Source: Bolinopsis microptera (Eukaryota > Ctenophora > Tentaculata > Lobata > Bolinopsidae). Taken from it: 49,500 bases of DNA. Below are positions 12,567-30,500 of the stretch, piece after piece (within the stretch, counting starts at the first letter, position 1; the number at the start of each line of letters is the position of its first letter). Below the pieces are notes generated by a model. That model did no database searches. It was given only the letters and a program-made list of their open reading frames with translations, and was not told where the DNA came from. Where the stretch lies: the NCBI RefSeq assembly GCF_026151205.1, contig NC_087084.1, positions 2,515,345-2,564,844 on the forward strand, given 5' to 3'. Made by a program: the position numbers and the translations under genes.

Positions 12567-15500
12567 GTAAGGGAATGCACATTTTGATTTTCAACAGGGG
12601 TTTTTCCGATATTGCTTATCAGTTATAATAGAAGAATAGACATAAAACAGAATCCTCAAAATATAATAGACACAACTAAATTTTTTAAATCTTAATGACA
12701 AGATAAAAACATGTCAACCTTATATAATATATTAAATATGAATGTCGTATTTAAACTGATTTCTAAACAGTTGCTACAACCCTAGCTCATTTATAGCAAT
12801 TTCACGACATGACTGTATGTGCGTAACTTTGTCCTTAGCTGTAGAATAGTCGAGAATCGTCTAGTTTAGTTCGGCAGCAACTTGGGCTGTCATATTTGAA
12901 TGTGTTTGTTTTTTAATATTGCATTACAAATGCATGTATGCGATGAGAAAGGGTTGACTAGAAAAGCAGAACAATCGAATAACAATATTAACTCGTATCA
13001 CCTTAATAACACCAGAATGTGTGTGTGTGTGTGTGTGTCATGTGTCTGTCTGTCTGATCGTCTGTGTGTAATTTCCGGTCGGTTATACAAAAAAACGGTA
13101 AGAGTTACGGGACTGGTTTTTTCGGTATAGTGCCGACAAAGCTCTGATGAAGCCCATAAGAAAAAATTTTTTAAATCGGCCGGTGGTAAGTGGTTTAATT
13201 GATGGCTTTGTACCACAAATGTTACATAAAATAGCTTGAGCAGAACGGCAAGAGTTACGGGGCTTGCTCGCTCTCTCATTACTGTATAATATGTTAATGT
13301 TATAGCTGCATTTAAGTAGCGTCATAATTAGATTAGCCCGGAAGATTCGCTGTAATGTTATACCATAAGCTTATTAGGGGAGGGGGGACTGTTAGTGTTT
13401 GGGGTCTGTTTGGACTGCAGAGAGAGATAGAGAGAGTTCATACGACAATGTTATGCGTGTTTTCAAATATAATAGGCGGGTGTGGTGCGGAGTTAACAAG
13501 GGTTAATTTCTATAACGATTTAAATAAAAATGGAAAGCGGTTCAAGACGGGAGTGATGAGGTGTAATAGTCGGTGTTCAGACCTTATGATCATGGAATGT
13601 GGTGCCTCATGGCAAATAATGACTTAATTATCCACAAAAAATAACTGATTATGAGATTATTGTTTAAGAAACTATTGGGTCACCTAATGCGGGTTTTGAC
13701 TCAGCGGGTAATTACTCCTACCCTTTTTAACTGCAGAGTAACAACAGAGTAATTAGTCAACAGATCGCTCATGTTGACACTGATTTCAGCAAGTCCAATC
13801 CTATCAACTACAGCAAACACTCAATGTACTTTGGAACCTGGAATGTTTTATCTTTAGTCAGCTCATCTTCACAGCTTTATCAACTCAGTCAGAACATTGA
13901 TCACTACAGTCTTGATATTTTGGGTATTACTGAAACTCATATGCCAGGATCTGGAAGTACACTTTTGGACAATGGTAGTCTACTTATTCATTCTGGTAGG
14001 GGAGATGGTATCAAAAGGCAAGGGGTTGGCCTATGTCTTTCCAAAAAGGTCAGGAACTCCCTGATCTCTTATGTACCTACATCAGAGCGGGTCTTAACAG
14101 CTAGGTTACACGGCAAACACCTCAACATATCTGTTGTTGTAGCCTACGCTCCGACTGACGGTGCTGATGACGGAGAGAAAGATCGTTTTTACAACGTTTT
14201 ATCAGACACGTTTGGTGAACTGCCCCGACATGATCTGAAACTGCTACTGGGTGACTTCAATGGAAAAGTTACTTCAAACAGATATGGATTCGAGGGAGTT
14301 ATTGGTGGAGAATCTCTCCATAGTTCATCAAGCGACAATGGGACCAGGCTCATGGATTTCTGTGCAGCCAATCAACTTGTTATTGGTGGAACTCCGTTCC
14401 AGCATAGAGACATCCACAAGGGTACATGGCGGTCTCCCAACGGGTTAACTGTGAATCAAATAGATCATATTTGTATTAGTGGACGATTCCAACACTCGCT
14501 ACTCGATGTTAAGGTATGTCGTGGGGCGGACATTGGTTCAGATCACTATCTTGTTCGTGGACGGCTGCAAATCAAACTGCAGTCGGTAGCTAAGATCACT
14601 GCTAAAAGGCACGATGTGCCTGCTATCGAACATTTGCGAAACTCGTCTAAGGTTCAAGAGTACAACGTGGCTCTTCAGAACCGTTTTGATTGTCTGGCTA
14701 ATGAGGTCAACCTTGAGGACATGTGGGATAATTTCAAGCAGACAGTCACTGATGTCTCGATGGAAGTGCTTGGAAAGCGTCCCCGGAAGGTTAAAGAACA
14801 ACACCTTTCGCAAACCTCTAAGAACTTGATAGAGCAACGGGGAATGTTCAAACGGAGGGATCCCACTTCAAACGTCAATAGATCAGCCTACTCTAAACTT
14901 AATAAATTAGTTAAGAAAAGTTGTAAAATTGACGACAACAACTGGGCTACTAAAATAGCGACTGATCTAGAGGAGGCTTCTAAGAAAGGCCAGCAAAGGG
15001 AAGTTTGGGATAAGATAAAGAAGATTTCTGGGAAAAAGAAGAAGAAAGTGGGTATGTCAGTTAGGGATAAGGATGGTCATTTTATTACAGACCCGGACAG
15101 TCAGAAGGAAAGGTGGAAGGAGCACTTTACTGAGCTCTTAAATCCTCCACTATCGGATGCCAATCTTGATGACCTCGATGGTTTGCCCTCACAACCGAGT
15201 TTTGACTACCTTTCTTGTTCTGATGGACCTCCTTCTAGAGATGAGATTAGTTATGCTCTAAAGAAACTGAAGAACTGCAAAAGTGCAGGGGTTGATGAGA
15301 TAACTAATGAACAACTTAAGTATGGTGGAAGTGCTCTTGTTGGCCAACTAGAGCTACTGTTTAAAAAGGTATGGGAGGAAGAGGTGATCCCTGAGGATTG
15401 GCTTAAAGGTGTTATAGTGGTTATCGGAAAGAAGGGAGACACCTCATACTGCTGCAATAATAGGGGTATAACTCTTAGGGCAACGTCTTCTAAGGTTCTT

Positions 15501-18500
15501 CAAATGGTTCTTCTTAAGAGGCTGGATGTTGGAATGGAGTGTCTTCTTAGGGAAAATCAGTGTGGGTTCAGACGGAACCGCTCATGTATTGATCAGATTT
15601 ATTCCATCCGCACCATTATTCACAACTGCATTGAGTTTAACATTCCACTTTATGTTAATTTCATTGATTTTAAGGCAGCGTTTGATTCCATCAGAAGAGA
15701 GTTTATTTGGTCAAGCATGAGACACTATGGACTTCCTGAGAAATATGTTAGAATCTTTCAGGCATTCTTCAACGGAACCATGAGTGCTGTCAGGGTTAAT
15801 GGTGAAATGTCTGATTGGTTCTCTGTTAATTCGGGCACTGGACAGGGTGATATCCAGGGCCCTCCTGTATTTAATTTCTGTCTGAACTTTGGAATCTTTT
15901 TGGCCGAGGTTCACAAGGCAATCAGTCATGGTGCTGTACTGCAAAAGGAACTAAAGGGTGCAGATGAAAAAGTTATTATGGATAGTGACTACGCTGATGA
16001 TCTGGCAGTGATGGACAATACTGAAGAAGGGCTGCAAGAGTCCACTGATCTTATAGCTTATTACACCTCTTATGCTGGGTTGAAGATCAACGCTAAAAAG
16101 ACACAATGCATGGCGATCAGCAAGTGTGCGTCCCAGCGACCTTACACCGAAAGAGACAGTATAAAGCTAACAGTGGAGGGAGAACCTGTTGAACAGGTCA
16201 GCAACTTTGTTTATCTTGGTGCCAACATCAGTGGGGATGGTACCATTGACCGAGATCTTGACATCAGGATCCAGCGTGCTAATGGTGCGTTCCATCAGCT
16301 TTGGAAGATATGGAACAGTCGAACTATAAGAACGCCCACCAAGATCCGTATCTACAAGGCTGCTGTTATTACTATTCTGTTATATGGAGCTGAAGTGTGG
16401 AACACAACAAAGAAGCAGATGAAACGGTTTGAGGTCTTCCATCTGACCTCCCTGAGAAGAATCTTGAAGATAAAGTGGTTCTTCCATGTCTCCAATGAAG
16501 AAGTTCTCAGGCGTGCTGGAATTAAGTCTATCGAAACTTTCATCGGTGCGGCTAGACTAAGGTGGTACGGACATGTTGTCAGAATGCCAGAGACGCGGTT
16601 CCCCAATTTCTTACTGGATTGGAAACCAAACTATGGAAAGAGACTGAGAGGACGACCCCGCAAAGGCTGGATGGCCTGTGTACTCGAGGATGCGGCTGAA
16701 TTTACAGGTGTCGATAACATCAGCAGAGATGCAGTAAAACAGTTGGCTCTAAAGCGAGTGGAATGGAGGAACATATTACGCCGTAGAAGAGATGTGTGTG
16801 ATGCAGGCCACTCCAACGACTAGGAGGAGACCTCTTCATGTAGCATGTATGTATGTATGTATGTATGTGTTTTTAACTGCGGCAGTGAAATCCCGGCCGA
16901 AGGCCGGGTTACACTAATAACTGTATAAGATGAACTAAAACTTTTTTATCAAATTGTATCACGAAATGTCCAATAGTTGTGTTGAAGAAAAGAAGTGACG
17001 TTGCCGGAGCTCGCAGCACCGTTAAAAGAGAAGATGACCCGGAAGATGACCCAGATGGGCCACCAATTCCAAATCCAATTAATCCTATGGAGATCGTTCC
17101 AGAAACTACGTTAGGTCAGTGGCAATTCCAATTACTTATCTACTAAATTGCAGCTGATTCTTCAGCTTCCTTATACAGGTCATGGGAAATAAAGTGAAAT
17201 GATAGATTCAAGCTGACATTTATCAATCATCACTTCCGATTTTTAGCTCAATAATTACTCTCCCTTAGCTCAATCATTATCAAAAAATAATGCATCTTCT
17301 AGTTGTAATCTTTCAATCACGTTTATGCTATAAGTTTAATAATTGGCGAATAGATACCGGGTGGGCCAAAAGTCTCAAAAATGAACTCAAATATTTTTCG
17401 ATTTGACAAATTCCTCGAACCAGTGGTGGTAGTAAGTCATACCAGAAAAAATTATTTCAATTGGCCACTCAGTAACTGAGCTATTAAGGCCAACGTATGT
17501 CCACTGACTTTTTGCCCACCCTGTATAATATTAATATAACAAACCAGTGAACAGTACGTCTCATTCAAGTGAGAATATTCGAATTTCAGTTAGGAAAAGA
17601 CTTCCCGACGAGATAATCCCAGTAGCTGCCTCACAATCCCACGCCTTCCAAGAAAAGGACAAAGAGAACGCCGCTAAATATGCAATAGATCTGGACCTGG
17701 AAACAACTTCTGTTACATCCCACGGGATGGATCATGTTAGTTCATTTTCCGAGTCTTCCAGAGCGCCATTATTTCTATTTTCCTATTTCCCCAGTGTGTC
17801 TTCCAGAGCGCCATTATCTCTATTTTCCTATTTCCCCAGTGTGTCTTCCAGAGCGCCATTATCTCTATTTTTCCGAGTCTTCCAGAGCGCCATTATCTCT
17901 ATTTTCCTATTTCCCCAGTGTGTTGACTCTATTAATTGATTGGTGTTTCGGTGTCCCTAATTTTGTCCCTAATTTTGTTTACACTTGGTCACTTGTCAAG
18001 GCATGTAAGGTCATTCGGCGATATTTTCTTTGAAATAAAATGATGTATTTGTGTAACAATTTGAAAGTTTATTGATAAAAAAATATCACTGACCAACTAT
18101 CTGTCAGAGTGGAGAATCCTGGCTGAAGATAACACTTGATAAGGTTTACTGCGTGCGACACGTGGTGTGGTTTAAGAAGAATGGTAGTCCCCATCTCACT
18201 TGGAATTGTACCTCTGCAGACTGTGACATCTGTGAAGGAGGCTACTGGTTAGTTTTCTGTGGTTCCTGGGACAACACATTCTTGTAGAGAAACCTTTTGT
18301 TACGAATTTATTCATAGAATATGCTATTCTTCCCCTTTTTTATAGGTGTAGTGATTACTCCATGATAGTTGAAAGTGAAAGAGAAACTAAAGATAGTGTT
18401 CGTCCTGTCCCTGGCTGTAAGCATGGAGACAGTGTAAAGTTACAGAGAAATAGTGGTCACGAGTTCTACATGTGGGAGATAGCCATTGTGGGCACTCAAG

Positions 18501-21500
18501 GTATGGGGAAAATTATGCATTCATAATTTATGCATTCATAATTTATGCATTCATAATTTATGCATTCATAATTTATGCATTCATAATTTATGCATTCATA
18601 ATTTATGCATTCATAATTTATGCATTCATAATTTATGCATTCATAATTTATGTATTCATAATTTATGTATTCATAATTTATGCATTCATAATTTATGCAT
18701 TCATAATTTATGCATTAGTCAACTCATGAGGTTTAGATTAGATAATACTCGGCCCCCGTTATAATTATGTGCTTACAAGCGGTTTAAAACCCAAACTTAC
18801 CATCTGTAGATTGATTGTATAGCTAATCACGTTCGTATCTTCAAAAAACTATTCGTTATTTTAATCAATTACAAATTGTTACTGCCAAATAAATAAAATG
18901 TATTTCAGAATTGAGCCTATTGTCGGAGAATCTGGTTGCAACACAAAAAAGCATTGGGTGGGATGGAGAACCTACACGAGCAATCGATGGGAACAGAAGT
19001 GGGGAATGGAGCGACGGGTAAATACTATTGCCTTATTAGTGCTGACCATGTCACTTTATTTAAAACAATGTGGACTATGTTTAGTCGAATACAGGCTTAC
19101 TTGAATTTGTTTGTCATTTAAAAGTAGTTAATAAGATATTTTGTTTTTAGATCCTGCACCCGAACTGAAGGAGCCGCAGGAAACTGGTGGATGGTGGAAC
19201 TTAACCAGAACTACAAAATTACAAAAGTACTTGTGTATAACAGAATGGATTGCTGTCAGGACAGAATTGATGACGCAAAGGTTTGTTGTGGGGTCGCGTT
19301 TTAAAGTCCTCATTTAACTTTTGGCTTTTTTAAAGAGCTAAGTGCAAAATACTTGTATAACGGGAAATGAATAAGAATTGACTTTTTCTAAAGCCAAGTT
19401 TTTAATTTGAATGAATAGATAAACTTCATTGCCCAGGTGTATGCAGGAGCAGTATATTGCGGTGATATTAAGGTTGAGGAAGGCAAACAAGTGTACGAGA
19501 TATCCTGTCAAGGAGCAGTAGCAGGAAGTATTAGGATAGTTCAACCTTACGATTATTTAACTATCTGTGAAGTTGAGGCATTTGGAATACCGACTGATGA
19601 TGTAGCCCTCGAGAACGTTGCTACAGGTATCCGTTTGATCTACTATTGACTGTTTATTGTTGATCTTATTCCATTGGATGGCAGCGAAGGAACTAAAGAA
19701 CTAAAGGAATATAGGAACATTAGTTTTATATAATTTATATTTAAGTTTTACAATAATTCTAATTTAAAACAGGTAAACCTGATTGGCAGAGCAGTACAGG
19801 GTGGGGAGGATTACCATCACGTGCCACTGATGGGAATATTAACGGAATATGGGCCAGGAAGACCTGCAGTCACTCTGCAAACAACCATTTCAACATGTGG
19901 AAGGTTTAAACTTATATTTATACAATTCCGAGCATGGGTTGAAAATGAAGATGATCACGACATTTTGAAGCATCGACCAATTAGTTGGGTGCCAATTTTA
20001 AATTTGCTCGACATTAAAATAATGTGACATACACATTACATGAGGTCATATACATCAGGTGAATCTGATAGAAATGTACGATGTAGATTCAGTAGTTATT
20101 TACAACCGGGTGGATTGTTGCCAACCACGACTAGACGGTGTTCAGGTAAGATGTTACCTTATCGGAATTTATTAAGGCAGAGATTATGAAGAGGAAAATT
20201 ATTTTGGGTAAACAATTCTAATCAAATTTAATTTGTGAGGATATTACGTAAGCGCTGAAACGTTCAGTGACGCACCAACGTTATGTCCGAACAAATAAAT
20301 TTCTATAATCTTAAGATGCTTCTTCACTCGGAAACAAACTGCCAACAATTCTGTTTATCAGAGATATCCTTGGGAATCCAACTTTCAGTACCTCAATCGT
20401 GTCTTGTGCCATCTTCAGTAAGCTTGTAAGATGGTCATTAAAGAAAAATTCAGTCAAAACAGTGGAATTTGGGTTGCGGAAAGCTGAAATTCGAATATGT
20501 CCTACCGGTAGGACATATTCAAAATTGTCATTGCATTAAAGTTTTCTCCGGATATACTGCTTTGCAGTACTTTTATGGCAACTTGTGTTACTCTCACCTA
20601 CCTCACTGATTGGTCACTGGTCAAAATTTTAGTCAAAACCGCGAAATTTCGGTCAAGGGGACGGCAGAAAAGCTCCTCTTCAAACATCTTCTGAAATCTC
20701 TTTTTTATATTCTGATGATTTTCCGTTTATCAAAACTTTCTTTGGGAATAAAACTTTGAGTACCTCAATCGTGCCATCCTCAGTAGTGAGGCGTTAGTGC
20801 CGAGTAATGCCTCTGGGTAGTGCTCCTCAATCAATCAGTAACTTCTTAGTTTACCGACTTATTGTTCATCTTTCTGTTCAGGAAATATCATATTTGAAAA
20901 AAGGACAGACCATGTAAATGAGGTAATCGATCATTCTCGTAAAATTATCACGCTGATACCCTACAACAGGTGTACGTTGGTAAAACACTGTGTGGAGCTG
21001 TTAAATGGGAGACTGACAAGACTGTGTATCGAGTGAGCTGTTTCGGGACCGCTGGTAACACTGTTAAAGTAGCACAGGATGATGAGTTCCTAGCTTTATG
21101 TGAGGTGGAGGTCCTAGGTAAGCATTTGTAATTTAGTAATGAAACAATAAGTTTCATTTTACATTCCTTTTAAGCATGTCAAGTGGTTGTTTTTAGTGAG
21201 ACAGGGTAATTTTCTCTATGATGATTGCAGAATTTTGCGGTAAGTGAAATTTAAATCTAAGTAAAATCCCACTTTGGATGAATTATGTTCAGGGAAACCG
21301 AGTGTCAAGCGTGGACAATTCATAAACGTCGCTGGGGATGGTAAGGCTACACAATCAAGTACTGGGTGGAACGGGGTAGCAGGAATGGCTATTGATGGAG
21401 ACACTAACGGAGACTTGCTTGGGTAAGCTAGTATGAATTTACGACAATTAGTAACTGGGTTAATTGCAAGCGTTCTCAGAATAACGATTAATTATTGTTA

Positions 21501-24500
21501 TCAAGCTTAAAGTGAAATTTTGCAACAATTCACAGAAATAGAGTCGTGAAATAATAAAAATAATCACTGTAATAGTCACAACCTTTGGCAGTATCTAGAT
21601 AGCCCGACCCCTGTCCGCGGACAAATGTCCGCGGACTCTAAGAGTAGGACTAAAGTTCGACTAAAGGATTAACAATGGTACAAAACAAACGATTTAAAAT
21701 AATATCTTACCTCGTTTTCTGCTGTCTGTAGACACTTTGCCCATTGTCCCCTGTTCGCTAACAGATCTAACCCCGCTATAACATCCACATTGGCAAGCTC
21801 CTCGGCCTTGCCTCCTCTCTTCAAACTCTCAACGTACTCCTCCTCCACCCTGTGTTCGAAATGTGGAGCGTGCTCCCTCGCCACTGCTCGAGCCCTGTCC
21901 CACTTGTCCCCCAGTATAAAGGCGTCAATACTCTCCTTGTACCGCTCAATTGACAGATACGCCTCGCCCGCACTCTCGAACCTGGAGATCTCAGCCAGCC
22001 GTTCTGCTACTGTTGTACCCACGTGACTTGCTTTCATTGGCACAAACTTCAGAGCCAGTTCAAGAGCTTTGTACCAAACCTAGGAGAAGAAAAGTTAGCC
22101 CCTGAAAACTCAAGAGATCAGACGCACTGTGTTAGAATTTTCTTTAAGAATATTTGTATATTTTGAAATTTTTGCAAATGTTTGGTCATAAAAAATATAT
22201 TTTTCGCACAACGTAATGGTTTTACTCAATTTACAGTACTACCTTAATCTTCTAATTTGACGTTCTGTAGATGCATTTGATAAAACCTGCTTTGTTCAAC
22301 TTGTTTTATCGATACACTTGCTCGTTTTTTATAGATATCTTGGTTGCCCGACTATAGTATGAAGCAACTCATGGTTATGTTTGGATTGAGTAGTTCTAGT
22401 TGATAGATGTTTCATGTTCGGGTTGTGTGTCGTCACATACATACATGGTAAGGTCTCCTCCTAGTCGTTGGAGTGGCCTGCATCACACACATCGCGTTGG
22501 CGGCGTAACATATGTCTCCACTGTACTCGGTTGGTAGCCAAAGCTTCTGTTGTCTTGTTGTCGATGTTTTCAACACCTGTAAACTTAGCAGCATCTTCGA
22601 GTACGCAGGACTTCCAGTTCTTACGGGGTCTGCCCCTTGACCTCTTTCCATAATTTGGCTTCCAGTTCAACAGGTTGTGTGTCGTCAGGTTGTAAATATC
22701 ATGTTGATTGTTAATAATAAGTGTTGTTGTATCTTTGTTTGTTGTTAATAATCTTTAACATACTTTTAGGAGTTTTATTTTTTACGCCTGCTTTTTGGTC
22801 GTCAAAAAAGTTTTAAAATCCGTTTCTTTTTTTCTTCCTCATTTTTCGATTGTTTTTTTTTTTGTACTTGCAGACAGCTTATCGTACAACAAATAACTAA
22901 TTACTTTAAAACAGTCACAGCACCAGAATGTACAATAAGACAGAGTTCTTTGAGCACTACAAGAGTGCAGATCTTACAGTCGGGACAATATATCTGATCT
23001 GCTTTGCATTTGGACTCCCGAACAACATCTTAGCTCTCTGCTTCTTTGTGAAACAGCGCCTGAGATCCTCTGAGCTGAACGATCACCTTTACATATTGAC
23101 CACTGTGAATGATGCATTCATTTCACTGCTCACCTTGAACTATGGTATGACCATGGTAAGATACAGAGATGTTTGGCTACCAGATTTCTGCCCAACCCAG
23201 CATATCCTCTTCAAGATGTCTCAAAGAATATCTGTCTTTCTGGTTGCCACACTTTCACTTAGTAGAACGTACATCCTTCTCTTTCCCCTAAGAAAAGTCA
23301 GTCAAAGATTAGTTTTGAGCCTCATTGCTGTACTTGTTGTGTCCATGGCATGTTTCTTCGCAATTCCACCTTTTGTAAAGCTGGTCCAGATAACCTACCA
23401 CTGGGAAGATGGCTATTGTTGGGTTGAATCAATACCAGGGAAGAACATGACTAAAGTTTGGGATGTAATTGACAATACCTTGGATACCATCTTTCTTGCA
23501 TGCCCGGTCCTTCCGGTAACTGTTAGCTGCATCATTGCATCTTACAAGATCCTTTCTTCGAGGAAAGACAAGCCTGGGCTGATCAAACTTGCGAAGCAAA
23601 GTCGAGCAGCTGTGAAGAATAAAAGAAACCAGATTACATTGACCATTATCTTGGTTACTCTTCTTTACATCGTCTCCAACATTCCACTCTTCCTGAACTA
23701 CATCCTGTATCTTATAACGATTTATCGTTACAAGTACCCTGGACCCTTCTACAGCTCTCCTGTGGTGTACTTCTACGCCTGGAATTGCACAGCTCTTCTC
23801 AGCACAAGTCTGAACGCAAGTGCTAACCCGATAGTTTATTGGATGAGATTTGGAAACTTCAGAGAGTGGATAAAAGGAGGATGTGGACTCAAGGCAACCA
23901 CTTTATCTTCACTGAAAACGGGTGAGTTGTGCAACTCAAAGTCAGCGATCCAGCAGAGTAAAGGCGATTTGAGAGCTCAAACAAAATCTGTGACGCTGAA
24001 AAGCAACAAAACTTCATCAGATGTGTAGACAGAAACTTCTGGAGGGATTTGGGAGGACCATCGCTCTGGACTCAGACTATTGAATTAGTTCAGACACTCT
24101 TACACCGTGGAAACAAATAACAATAGACTCGAATTTCTTATTATAAACTGAATAAACATACTATCACCTTATATTATTAAGTCCTTTCACAGTTGCATTC
24201 AAAAATTGAATAACCGTTGAATTACGAAACAGCACCAAAATTAGTCCCACAAGGAAGTACACCTTCAAGCACAGACTCCCTGGCGTTAGGTTGCTAAATA
24301 GGCTATCTTGCATTCATAAACATAAGACTTATTGTAGATCTTCAAAGATCTTGTATTAATATATTTTAAAATTAATATCAATGATTATTTTTACCGTAGC
24401 TAAACCTCCTGCTTTGACTTTAAGTTTTGCATGGCCAAATAATTTTAGTTGCATATTGCAATATGAAAGGAAATTTATATCTTTCTTAAGTTTGTTAATG

Positions 24501-27500
24501 ATATTTAACATCTGTTATTACTCACTGCCAAGATCATGGGTAAATACTGTTTTTTATAGTCTTTATATTTTTAATACTTTCAACACTACTATATAACAAA
24601 TAATTTGAGATCATGAATACGATGTAGTCACATTGAAACGTCGAGTAATCTCCTTTCGCTAATAAGAGCATTTTTACTTGTCGCAACAACCGGGATAAAA
24701 ATAATTTTACACAGAATACACTGTTTTTTAAATATTTAATTATGAGTGAGGTATCTCAATTCTCGTCAAAATATGCTACAGATTATTAACGCGATATTTC
24801 CCAGCATCTAACAGAACTTCACTGATTTCATAAATATAGACAAACAATTATATTTCCACAATTGGTTTATTCTCCTCTCTGACGTAACACTAAACACAAC
24901 AATCATATACCAGTATCCGCTGACATGGTACTCTTCTGTCTAAAGGACGAAATTAATGGAGGAAGGAGTTGATGATAGAAATGATTGATGCGGTCTGATG
25001 GAGTGTTATAAAGTTGTTGTACTCTATAAGTGTGTATTCACCTACAAGCATAACTGCTTGGCGTGATGAGGTACATCTTTGATTGGTCGAAGGTCTTTCA
25101 ACAACACAGCATCATCACTTTCATAGTAGTCCCCGGCTTATGACGGGTTCATAGCGGTATTAAACATGTTTTTCTGGGCCCAAACATTCTACGCTCCTAC
25201 TATGCTATTACTGGTCTCTTGACTAACTCCCAATCATCTGTCCATATGGTATTGTTTCTGGACAAATAGATGGTATACGATGCCCTCAGGCTGATCTCAG
25301 CGATCTTCATGCAGGCCTTCTTCTTCTCTTTGTTGTTTACGTTCAGGTGGTTCATAAAGGTTGGGAGGCTATAGTTGTAAATGCCTCGAGCTCCCACTTC
25401 TACTGTCTGGAGCTTGCAAGCCCATCCGTTGGCTTCTATCTCTTCTGTCAGCTGCTGATATCTCTTCATCTTTCGCTTCTCTTGATCAGCAAAGTTCTGC
25501 TCATTTACACAAGTCAGTTATTCTTTATATATTGCATGATGTGAACTGATCTCGTAAGGTTGCTTAATCGTTTAATAATTAGCCTTGACACCACCTCTGA
25601 TTGAAATTCGCGTGCGATGATGTTAACCCTGCTTGATTCAGGGGATACTGGTATCATGCAGTAATATGATCTGGGAGACAGGTGTTCGTGGACAGTTGTC
25701 CGTGGGCAGTTGTCCGCGGACAGGGGTCGGGCTATCTACATACTGCCCAACCTTTTTGATTTTCAAAATAATGATAAGACCTTAACTTCAATACAACGAA
25801 CCGACTAATGGAGCTGAACTTTCAGTGGCAGCTGTTCCCATACAGGAAATGTTGATGATGGCTGGTGGAATCTCGAGTTTCCTGACCCTGTCGATATCAG
25901 GAGTGTTGTTATTTATGATAGAACAGATTGTTGTCGAGACAGGATTGATGGGGTTAAGGTGATCTAATTGGGCATTTTGCTCCTTTATAAAAAAATTTAT
26001 TGTTTTTTTAAATCAGGACATTTTTTTTGAAACACGCTGTATTTAACATGCAATGTTTCACGTCTTGGCAATGTGATTTTAGCTTTAGCCAATAACTAGT
26101 GACTACCCTTAGATGTAAAAATGATAATATACAGTATTCTGAATGTAAACAATAAACATACCTCTTGAACCTTTATAGGTTTACGCGGATGAAATGCTCT
26201 GTGGTGAAGTTAACTACGTTTGGGGACAAGGTGTATATGTCATCAACTGTGAGAGTGACACCTCTGAGAATGTGTTTGGAACTAATATCCGTATAGAAGC
26301 AGCTCCTAAGCAATACCTTGCACTTTGTGAGGTAAATCTTCATATCCTTAGCTTTAAAGTCGAGCTTTTTATTTAGAATTAAAACAAGTCCTTCATATCA
26401 TGTTTCCTCAGTCACACCATAATAATGAAGATAAAAAGATAAATTCTAGGGTTAAAAAGCAATGCAAAAAATCGTAAAGTTTACCAATAAAAAATAACAC
26501 TCAGGTCAAAGTCTTCTCAGACCCCACCGCTGAGGTTGGAGAGGATCGTCTGGTTAATCTGGCGTACCTCAGACCAACATCACAATCTTCAACGGAGTGG
26601 GGAGGCGTCTCCAGCCGTGCTGTTGATGGTAATGAAGCCGGAGCGTGGAAATCGTAAGTTAATCAACTTTGCTCGTGGAACTGCCGCCTCGATTATAAAG
26701 ATTGAAATGTTGACAATTATCTCCTTTTATCACCACAAATTCGTTATGGGGTTACTTGCAACACGTTTGGTTAGGTGTTTATAAACTCAAGTCACTTTAG
26801 TAAAGTGTCTAATTAACCGGTAATTAATCAATTAAGAGGTTACCAAAATGCTATTTGAGTTAACAATACTCCCCAGGGGTGCTTGCACTCACACTGCAAG
26901 CGCAGGCTGGTGGATGGTAGATCTAGAGGACAACTATATTGTCAACAAAGTCTGGGTCAAAAACAGGATTGATTGTTGTGGTGACAGGATCGATGGTGTG
27001 AAGGTAAAAATTACAATTTTATCGGGGGAAATTCCTTTTTTATTTGAATGATTATACGACTGGATAAGACTTTGAGTATGTATGTAGTAGACACATGATT
27101 GTAAATCATAGTTCGAAAATACAACTTAAAATTACACATCCATTTTTTTCAGATTTACGTTGGAGATGTTTTCTGTGGGACCATCAAATACGACCCTCTA
27201 AAGTTCAGCTACGAAGTGATCTGTAAGGAAGGTCAAGGAATAGTTGGTGACACAGTGAAACTTGTAAACGACAAAACTTACCTGACTTTATGTGAAGTAC
27301 GGGTGTGGGGCCCTAAGGAACCGGTTGTTATCAATGTTCCTGATGTGGAGGTTATTGGTGATATGAGTGATGCTGCTGATGATGCTGTTTCCATTGCAGG
27401 GTGTAGTGCTGGACAGGTACTTTCTTCTTTCTTTATTTATTTTTTATTTTGTTTTTATTATGTTTTTTTTTTGTATATTATCAAGCAACCAATGCCGTCA

Positions 27501-30500
27501 TTATTTGTAAATACAACCTCCGACTTCGCCAAAATGTGACATAACATATATAACTTGCAGGTCGTTATCTACTGTGACGTATTCACCGGGAATGTTGGTC
27601 TTTACTCGGATGGAGTGCTGGTTAATCCGAACACGGGATCCTCTTGTTCAGCTTATAACAGTGCTGGAGGTCAGGGTGTTATTGTAAGTTTTTAATACTT
27701 TCAACACTACTAAATAACAACTAATTTGAGCCTGAAGATGGCGTTGACGCCTCCATTCCAAAATTTGCCTCCATTCCAAACTTCTTGTTCCATTTGTCCT
27801 TGTCTCTTCCAACCGGATATTATCTAACTATCAGTATATCAGTAAGTTTATAATACGAATTATTACATTAAATCCCGCTGTCGCCTTTTATTTGCCTTCC
27901 CCCTTACTGACATGTTTTCCGAAATTAGAATTAGAAACGATGGGTACTGCCAACTTTTAGCTTTAGCTGGTATCTTCAAGCTTTGTTATTACACAGCTGA
28001 GATTCGGCGAAGATACAGGTCGTAATATGGCTTTGAATGGTAACGCAAATTTTACTGTTTTACATGTACAGCTGGTACTACTACATTTTAGGGTGAATTG
28101 ATCGTGGTATAAATTATGTATTGACAAAGAGAGACAATATGTATCATACAAAATTATTCGTAACACATTATAATGATATAATCACATAAACCTTTGAACT
28201 TGCACCTTAACAAAATATCGTTTTTTAGCTCAAATGATAAATCCAAAAAAAGTTGTATATCATACCCATTTTATTAAATGTTATAATGTAACTTCTTAAA
28301 AAGATAGATTCAAGGCCAAGAGTAAGATGAGCAATGAGCATACTGGTTCCAATAATTATAATAGGTGAGAAAATCTATAAACTGAGGGATCGCTCGGTAA
28401 AGTGGCCTTTGAAGGGGATGGGATAGGAGTGGTTCTGTTTACGTAATATGTGACCGATCCCGATACAAAATATTAAAGCACATACTAATCTGGTTTTTTT
28501 TTTCAAATAATGAAGAAAACGCATGCACGAAGAGCATAAAATCAACTATAGTCCTTTACTTCACGAATTGATCTTCAAACGACCAACTTATGCTTGTCCG
28601 ACTGGAGATCTGTAGATTGAGTGTCCAGAGTTAGTTCCAACTACTTCGTTTCTGTTCACATCGATTTGCATCAACTTTCCGGATACCTTTACCCATCCTG
28701 TGCCTGTAGGGTTATCTGCAGTCATTCCCTCGCGGTAAAAGATGTCATTAGCAGAATTTACGCCAACAACAAGGTCCGTTCCTGAGCTAATCCATTGCAG
28801 TTTTCCAGGAACCTGTGTCCAGCCTGTTCCAGCAGTGTCGGCGTCACCGTACGTTCCCACTCGGTAGAAGATATCGTGTGCCGAATTCACTCCCCACACC
28901 CCAGATTCCCCGACACTAATTTGGATGAGTTTCCCGACGATATGCTGCCATGAGGAGCCAATCCATCTGAAGATGTCCTGTCCTCTGTTCACTCCCCACA
29001 CATGATCCTTGTTGCTCACATCTACGTTTGTCAGTGCTCCGCCGATCTGTTGCCATTTGTCCTCTCCCAAGTACTTGTAGATTGAATCGGCTTTGTTGAC
29101 CCCCCAAACAGATGCTCCGGATGAAACTTGCACCAATCCACCAGCGATTTGAGTCCAGCTGTTTCCATCAGTATTAAGCTGGTAGATGTTGTCATTGCTA
29201 TTGACACCCCACACTCCTGAGTCTCCTTTCGAGATCTTGGTAAGTCCTCCTGGAATCTGCTGCCAAGCTGCTGTTATCACCTTTTGAACATCATCAACTG
29301 GACAATCTTGTGTGTTGCAATTCTGGTTTTCTGATTCATTTCCCTGACATTCTGCTCCTTTATGTTGAGGTGCAGGGTTAGTGCAGGTCCTGGACCTAGT
29401 TTTGGATCCTCCAGCACATTCAGCAGAGCATCCAGACCAATCTCCGAATTCAGTTCACTCACCATCAACTGGACAATCTTGTGTGTTGCAATCCTGGTTT
29501 TCTGATTCCTCTCCCTGGCAGTCTGCTCCTTTATGTTGAGGGGCAGGGTTAGTGCAGGTCCTGAACCTAGTTTTGGATCCTCCAGCACATTCAGCAGAGC
29601 ATTCAGACCAATCTCCGAATTCAGTCCACCCACCATGGACAGTGTCAGTGCATGTGTAGCCACATTTCTTTAAAACCTCCTCAGATTTTTCACACTTCTT
29701 TGCCTGCTTTTTCTTCAACTTCCCTATCGTCGTTACTGCACAGCCATCTATTATAGATGTATATCCTCCAGCACGGCACTTTTCATACTTCTTTACATTC
29801 TTTTTAAATTTCTTCCCCTCACATTTTACCCCTGCATTCACCAAAATGAAAAGAGTAGAGAAAGTTATAATCAGGATTAAGGTCCTCATCGCAGCAAACA
29901 AATTGAAACGTGATAGAAATTTAGATAATCGAATGATTGAGAACGTATGCTGTTAATGTTATTTATAAGATGTGTGTCGTCACCACCGGCCGCCCCTCAT
30001 TCAATTGAAACAATAAAGCCCAAGAGCTCTATGAGGGAAACCTTTCAAATATCCTTAACTGATAGACAAAACTGGCATCATGCGAATGTGTCATGAGGTG
30101 TGGATGTGGAAGTGGATGTGGATGTGGATGTGGATGTGGATGTGGATGTGGATGTGTCATGATGTTAATTGCTTTTGTAGGCAAACGGCTACAATTCAAA
30201 TGGCAGCGTTTGATCGAAACCTCCCCCCCCCCCCCCCTCGGCCCCCTGTGGGAATTAGGATGGGTGGGGTAGGGACTGGGGAATTGACACGAATGTTTTT
30301 AAAGTATATACAACTACCTTATGGGACCTTATTTGACCGGACATTAAATGAACGGACACAATTATGAACTAACATTAAAATTAACGCTCGAAAGCATTCA
30401 AAACCATCAAAAATTCAAATTTTTTTCATCTCTTTTTGGCTTAAAGTTTTAGCAGATAATTTGTAAATTAATTTTTTATACAATATGCAAGAGAAGCAGT

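Follow-up and report, generated by a model that had tools for sequence, protein, structure and literature searches.

A Merlin-Type Transposon in an Intron of Bolinopsis microptera That Probably Captured Part of IFT172 with a Complete Nested Receptor Gene

Pack-MULEs of plants are transposons with terminal inverted repeats (TIRs) that carry fragments of host genes. Across 100 animal genomes, 370 Pack-TIRs have been reported (Tan et al. 2021, PMC8277862); short shared letters occur at 67.6% of their junctions, template switching during repair has been proposed for the single-copy cases, and 59.8% lie on the chromosome of their donor, so cases with a donor on another chromosome are common. Merlin transposons have GG termini, an 8- or 9-bp duplication, and an IS1595-type DDE transposase, with matches in three ctenophore genomes (PMC8101967). 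In the ctenophore Hormiphora californensis, introns harbor 2357 nested genes; transposable elements flank at least one side of 1109 of them and both sides of 176 (PMC8527503). Here, we report an element from a 49,500-nucleotide stretch of the Bolinopsis microptera genome (the window; C13:2515345-2564844 in the 264.65-Mb assembly; positions given without a chromosome are those of the whole window). The element, at 21587-25747, lies in an intron of a C13 gene and is very probably a Pack-TIR, namely, a nonautonomous Merlin-type element in which much of the interior was replaced by 2.85 kb of IFT172 from C5, including a nested gene for a G-protein-coupled receptor (GPCR).

The first TIR begins at 21587, the second finishes at 25747, and both ends open with GGCAGTAT..., giving TIRs with a 5'-GG terminus. 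A preliminary description of the window had reported 37-bp TIRs with one mismatch and a perfect 8-bp target duplication, and both statements were borne out: the outer 38 bp differ at 1 position (the outer 50 bp at 4, positions 9, 39, 42, and 45), and CAACCTTT flanks the element on the left (21579-21586) and on the right (25748-25755) as an exact 8-bp copy. The Merlin left end, identified by end comparison and genome search, takes up 21587-21641 on the plus strand (a TIR of ~50 bp plus the junction), and the right end (25516-25747, plus strand) has 93.5% identity to the right end of a relative on C2 (L016; L numbers denote loci of this family). In the genome search for the TIR sequence that the preliminary description had proposed, a 25-nt end gave 336 occurrences at up to 2 mismatches, and the reversed control gave 0. 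At fixed ends, 16 of 19 other end pairs that were fetched have an exact 8-bp duplication; among the other three, L018 has one mismatch, L024 is exact if its left end is shifted by one base (read by eye from the printed letters), and L021 has none. Because of these end matches and duplications, a chance inverted repeat was rejected, and the observation of a TIR element with cargo between target-site duplications is confirmed.

The family is most likely Merlin and not MULE, since it combines GG ends, an 8-bp target-site duplication, and, in L016 (7650 bp, with a long interspersed nuclear element [LINE] nested inside), a truncated piece with similarity to the IS1595-type transposase domain. That piece scored just below the cut-off of 27 against the DDE_Tnp_IS1595 Pfam model (E value, 6.9e-6; 26.6 bits) and far below the cut-off of 75 against the NCBIfam IS1595 model (E value, 1.6e-6; 28.2 bits). 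A MULE assignment was rejected on the same three features, so the earlier label of a Pack-MULE-type element stands as far as a gene-carrying TIR transposon is concerned and is replaced by a Merlin-like type in the rest. The name of a Mutator transposase was absent among the open reading frames (ORFs) scanned, in a scan that included no search aimed at that transposase. A profile scan of ORFs found that L015 encodes a FLYWCH domain, which also accompanies some MULE-type transposases.

Cargo between paired ends was listed, as the preliminary description had suggested, for 25 elements with a duplication of at most one mismatch, namely, the GPCR element, 18 of the 19 pairs (including L018 and the shifted L024), and 3 of 18 plus 3 of 20 further loci. 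Only the GPCR element holds a recognizable host gene (1 of 25), a proportion that is no genome-wide rate, as 236 of the 336 ends lie beyond those listed. Among 38 loci retrieved around other ends, 30 have no partner end within the stretch, and L038 and L072, like L021 among the 19 pairs, have a partner end without a duplication. The interiors of the other elements are made up of a repeat in L014 (some 30 near-full-length matches among the best 40 candidates scored), reverse transcriptase in L016 and L024, a retroelement-ORF1-like sequence in L012 and low-complexity tandem repeats in L007 (both read by eye only), 581 and 653 bp without a recognized ORF in L073 and L076, and small pieces without match in L025 and L033; the remaining interiors match other Merlin copies. 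Seven elements are not independent insertions, as flanks are shared within one set of five (L007, L009, L011, L012, and L013) and one set of two (L015 and L019). The five, which lie on four chromosomes, have 300-bp flanks that are 94.7 to 100% alike and an identical duplication, and they probably go back to one Merlin insertion inside a larger repeat, which later multiplied.

The captured segment (21642-24905) is collinear with 2848 bp on C5 (C5:14482282-14485129, minus strand), from which it differs by 94 substitutions in 2785 aligned bases (both nested insertions described below and other gaps left out). Elsewhere in the genome, the part with the exon matches only the minus strand of C5:14484526-14485129 (89% when indels count; both of the 2 candidates were scored). 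The part with the GPCR aligns at 97% to the stretch next to it, C5:14482734-14484254; for this part, the second-best match is a 67% paralogue on C11. The whole IFT172 exon announced in the preliminary description, with both splice sites, was recovered at 21711-22079 on the minus strand; its 123 codons, with splice donor and acceptor, match residues 1326-1457 of the IFT172 in PDB entry 8bd7 (E value, 3.2e-16). Intron sequence of IFT172 is included on both sides of this exon, so the copy is not an intronless retrocopy. On C5, the plus strand has IFT172 ORFs for residues 1-167 (E value, 1.1e-51), 611-763 (E value, 2.5e-49), 1042-1111 (E value, 5.8e-27), and, as a weak match, 1287-1323 (E value, 0.066), which stand in order on one strand with the captured exon after the last of them. 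Between the ORFs for residues 1287-1323 and 1326-1457, the minus strand of C5 encodes the GPCR, so the donor is a complete intronless GPCR gene lying antisense within an IFT172 intron. A search of the 30 kb surrounding the donor, with up to 6 mismatches allowed, gave no Merlin end. Homology between C5 and C13 stops inside the TIRs; beyond the cargo, only short spliced-leader-like matches and one inverted match of 49 bp were seen. The right junction has ACAACAA, which C5 shares with several Merlin relatives, and then, on C13, 17 nt that agree with the right arm of the element itself in 16 positions and with other Merlin arms in 15. These 17 nt may have been copied in as filler or may be left over from the left arm. 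At the left junction, the exact boundary is blurred across ~5 bases (read by eye).

The host intron (21423-25825, plus strand; 4403 bp) belongs to a gene with F5/8-type-C-like domains and measures 234 bp when the element is taken out together with one of the two duplication copies. The host exons join in frame across the element, and the joined peptide matches PF22633 (E value, 2.6e-10; 41.2 bits; cut-off, 27.8). Relative to the host gene, the GPCR is parallel and the IFT172 exon is antisense. Among the best 40 of 66 candidates for the left flank, the assembly yielded no further full-length match. That the TIRs enclose genes native to C13 was rejected, as the rest of IFT172 is on C5 and the host intron reads in frame. 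Further along the window, a minus-strand reading frame at 28588-29454 encodes a thrombospondin type 1 repeat and a tectonin domain.

The GPCR gene (22928-24028, plus strand) was identified from its ORF, homology, and predicted structure. The intact 366-codon class A receptor of the preliminary description was upheld: direct matches to class A receptors are weak (best E value, 1.3e-5), there are 33 homologous proteins, and the predicted model has seven helices plus helix 8 (predicted local distance difference test score, 81.8). The receptor's own Pfam match is below the cut-off, and a relative with 59% identity (P0002) passes 7tm_1 (PF00001); by predicted fold and by this relative, the product of this intronless gene is a class A GPCR. 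The acceptor and polyadenylation signal attributed to it were likewise located in the sequence: a CAG behind a T tract (22871-22873, plus strand), 54 nt upstream of the start codon and a possible trans-splice acceptor, and AATAAA (24151-24156, plus strand) downstream of the stop. Ctenophore messages are widely trans-spliced, and in Hormiphora the spliced leader is on 56% of full-length reads, given as a lower bound (PMC8527503). Because acceptor and polyadenylation signal are kept and the orientation is parallel to that of the host gene, the GPCR could be expressed as a nested gene from its new host intron.

At least 110 places in the genome are related to the receptor (112 rows from the best 112 of 535 candidates, with two C5 rows merged and one overlapping C2 row dropped), and 105 of the 112 rows are without a stop, most of them single open frames. 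The nearest paralogues after the C5 parent are three neighbors on C11 (C11:5341186-5360800). In the comparison of GPCR copies inside and outside such elements that had been proposed, only 1 of the 110 places, the C13 element itself, had a Merlin end within 20 kb (100 of the 336 ends listed). No second copy of the TIR-cargo chimera was found in genome searches, in two of which the best 40 candidates were scored. The suggestion that such elements disperse chemoreceptor genes is not supported by these results.

Two insertions nested in the cargo are absent at the assembled C5 locus. The nested LINE copy of the preliminary description, with its 15-bp duplication, was recovered as a truncated copy at 22436-22672 (minus strand) between duplications at 22421-22435 and 22673-22687, with 76% identity to the 3' end of a LINE at 13731-16823. 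The latter encodes endonuclease and reverse transcriptase domains in one unbroken frame of 1030 codons and is possibly a recently active copy. The second insertion (24559-24717, plus strand; boundaries approximate) includes a spliced-leader-like sequence at 24569-24609. Such sequences, close to the published Hormiphora leader, were also seen at 27690-27730 in the window and at L016:7070-7110 and L024:773-813, with further copies at L027:3467-3502, L034:2857-2900, and L036:2682-2721. Those in L016 and L024 sit where nested LINEs appear to have their 5' ends, as would result from reverse transcription of trans-spliced RNAs, and part of the genomic leader counts in ctenophores may consist of such retrocopies. 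At 27684-27730, the leader-like sequence starts one base past a splice-donor-like GTAAG.

Beyond the cargo, a Merlin interior (24907-24999, plus strand) consists of a subterminal 17 nt (24907-24923) and two coding pieces from the start (41 nt, 24920-24960) and the end (38 nt, 24962-24999) of a transposase. The earlier statement that the element has no transposase is thus right in that none is complete and is amended by these two short pieces. The next piece (25000-25517, minus strand), described before as a retroelement remnant, is indeed from a retroelement and is better described as a truncated copy of a high-copy one (found by genome match; LINE-like by eye; no clear duplication), with 99.2 to 99.6% identity to all 6 of 6 fetched copies. 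That these 518 bp are a second captured filler was rejected, as the six copies share the left end and vary at the other; an ordinary truncated retroelement insertion is likelier.

Copy and donor have diverged unevenly. On the side of the GPCR that faces the exon, three non-coding stretches have substitution rates of 7.0, 5.7, and 5.6%; on the far side, two have 2.0 and 3.2%. The rates are 3.7 and 3.5% in the GPCR untranslated ends, 2.8% in the GPCR coding sequence, and 2.2% in the IFT172 exon. A lone IFT172 exon inside a transposon is expected to drift freely. The exon copy has 8 substitutions relative to C5, 7 of them synonymous (P, 1.9e-4 if every change were neutral); so few nonsynonymous changes have a P value of 0.005 if the element copy alone drifted, over half of the divergence. 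As a bare count, the single nonsynonymous change has a P value of at most 0.004 at a neutral level of at least 5.6%. Most differences therefore look acquired while both lineages were normal IFT172 alleles, and for this reason, we consider it rather probable that the capture was recent and that its source was a C5 haplotype that had diverged from the one in the assembly. The two insertions absent at the assembled C5 locus would then possibly have been in the source haplotype already, and their use as proof of time since capture was rejected. In favor of a diverged haplotype, we counted the heterozygosity of another ctenophore (2% for single nucleotides, 3.2% combined; PMC8527503) and the two lineages of Bolinopsis microptera with a contact zone in California (PMC9585324). 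Against this timing stand the uneven divergence itself; the same single-change count at a neutral level of 2 to 3%, where it is unremarkable (P, 0.23 to 0.08); the low heterozygosity reported for Californian B. microptera (PMC9585324); and nuclear genomes that are most alike within California (PMC9585324).

For the copying itself, we infer that a break would have arisen in or at a Merlin element and that template switching during its repair would have copied the C5 stretch into the element; the junction features fit such switching without proving it. Filling of a Merlin element in place on C13 appears somewhat more probable than capture at another site. Capture elsewhere, followed by transposition of the filled element into C13, is an alternative that we hold only tentatively; the exact duplication, the donor on a different chromosome, and the exact duplications that the family left at many sites all agree with it, but the chimera was found once, and the Pack-TIR survey explains single-copy cases mostly by filling in place (PMC8277862). 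An ordinary duplication, segmental or ectopic, that brought C5 sequence to C13 between TIRs present by coincidence or added later would account for a cargo that is one contiguous genomic segment including intron sequence. It is hardly credible, given that C5 homology stops inside the TIRs apart from short matches, that the exact duplication flanks the TIRs, that the donor has no Merlin end nearby, and that the remaining host intron is short and in frame. Scarcely better placed is the idea of a dispersal vehicle, in which Merlin elements would repeatedly carry receptor genes round the genome. A complete receptor between ends that look mobilizable and the number of largely stop-free receptor-like places speak for it, but the searches gave no second copy of the chimera, the other duplication-bearing elements examined have no recognizable host gene, and none of the 100 listed Merlin ends is within 20 kb of another GPCR place. 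The Merlin element filled with C5 sequence is the reading we strongly prefer. Against it, the search of the assembly with the left flank (best 40 of 66 candidates) showed neither an empty site nor a cargo-free Merlin element for the C13 site, and no full-length transposase was found among the family elements examined, the L016 piece scoring below both cut-offs.

A further question is whether the element-borne receptor came under selection and replaced a dying C5 copy, that is, whether a functional gene moved. The transposon-borne GPCR is the only intact copy in the assembly, as a 1-bp deletion (a frameshift) at codon 172 interrupts the assembled ORF on C5. The two GPCR copies differ by 18 synonymous and 13 nonsynonymous changes (ratio of nonsynonymous to synonymous rates [dN/dS], 0.20), fewer nonsynonymous ones than expected had the C13 copy drifted for half of the divergence (P, 0.003 to 0.014), and both acceptor and AATAAA are kept. 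However, the IFT172 exon in the same segment is equally purifying, so the low dN/dS can predate the capture, as recent capture from a diverged haplotype would also imply, and it was rejected as proof of function. Polarized with other ctenophore proteins, the amino-acid changes are near equal: the C13 branch has 7, and the C5 branch has 6 in addition to the frameshift (at least two sites depend on one close outgroup). The C5 frameshift is possibly a sequencing error; we do not take it as established, because a PacBio continuous long read (CLR) library was made for the Bolinopsis microptera genome project (PMC9585324). We therefore regard a functional move as unlikely. A related conjecture seems more doubtful still: a transposon would have carried a whole nested gene between host introns of two chromosomes, and given the wide use of trans-splicing in ctenophores, an intronless receptor with its own acceptor and polyadenylation signal might be a portable cassette, expressed from any recipient gene, and the transposon copy might now be the working copy in some individuals. 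If true, this would help explain the transposons beside so many nested ctenophore genes.

In the Pack-TIR survey (PMC8277862), such elements are defined by the two ends of one TIR element around an interior of 100 to 5000 bp, a donor of at least 90% identity with a length ratio of 80 to 120%, a donor free of transposons within 100 bp, and a copy that is no intronless retrocopy. The C13 element has such ends and such an interior; its identity to the donor is 96.6% by substitutions over 2785 bases with a length ratio of 1.15, determined by BLAST and pairwise alignment instead of BLAT, and the exon stretch falls to 89% with indels. Around the donor, where only Merlin ends were considered, there are none in 30 kb, and IFT172 intron sequence flanks the exon. 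The element is also like most animal Pack-TIRs in that a TIR DNA transposon encloses copied host DNA, the donor is unambiguous, and there is a single copy (PMC8277862), and it shares with many of them a donor on another chromosome and common letters (ACAACAA) at a junction. It is unlike them in size and family, since the median capture is 224 bp and the largest human case is 3585 bp, compared with 2.85 kb and a whole receptor gene here, and since 87% are hAT or Tc/mariner, compared with a Merlin type here (PMC8277862); the words "Merlin" and "ctenophor" are absent from the main text of that survey. The preliminary description had called gene-carrying TIR elements rarely described in early animals, a view that gives way before the 370 animal cases; the kind is already known in animals, and it is the cargo that is unusually large and gene-complete. 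No earlier report of the C13 element was recognized in the literature, judged by titles and abstract openings. With vehicle, donor, and landing site identified and the breakpoints known almost exactly, the locus is a well-resolved case of complete-gene copying by a DNA transposon, in a lineage that branches at or near the root of the animals; it would show mobile DNA copying complete genes around an animal genome, and it bears on the origin of nested intronic genes and on the mobility of intronless genes with their own acceptor.

Compared with Merlin transposons, the C13 element has the same GG termini and 8-bp duplication, and a relative has an IS1595-type piece, but it is without a complete transposase and carries host genes, a cargo not met in the portions of PMC8101967 drawn on here. 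Plant Pack-MULEs are alike as TIR elements with host gene fragments and unlike in transposon superfamily. The nested genes of Hormiphora are alike in lying within the introns of other genes, but there, transposable elements are reported as neighbors (PMC8527503), whereas the C13 case has a donor, a copy, and transposon boundaries.

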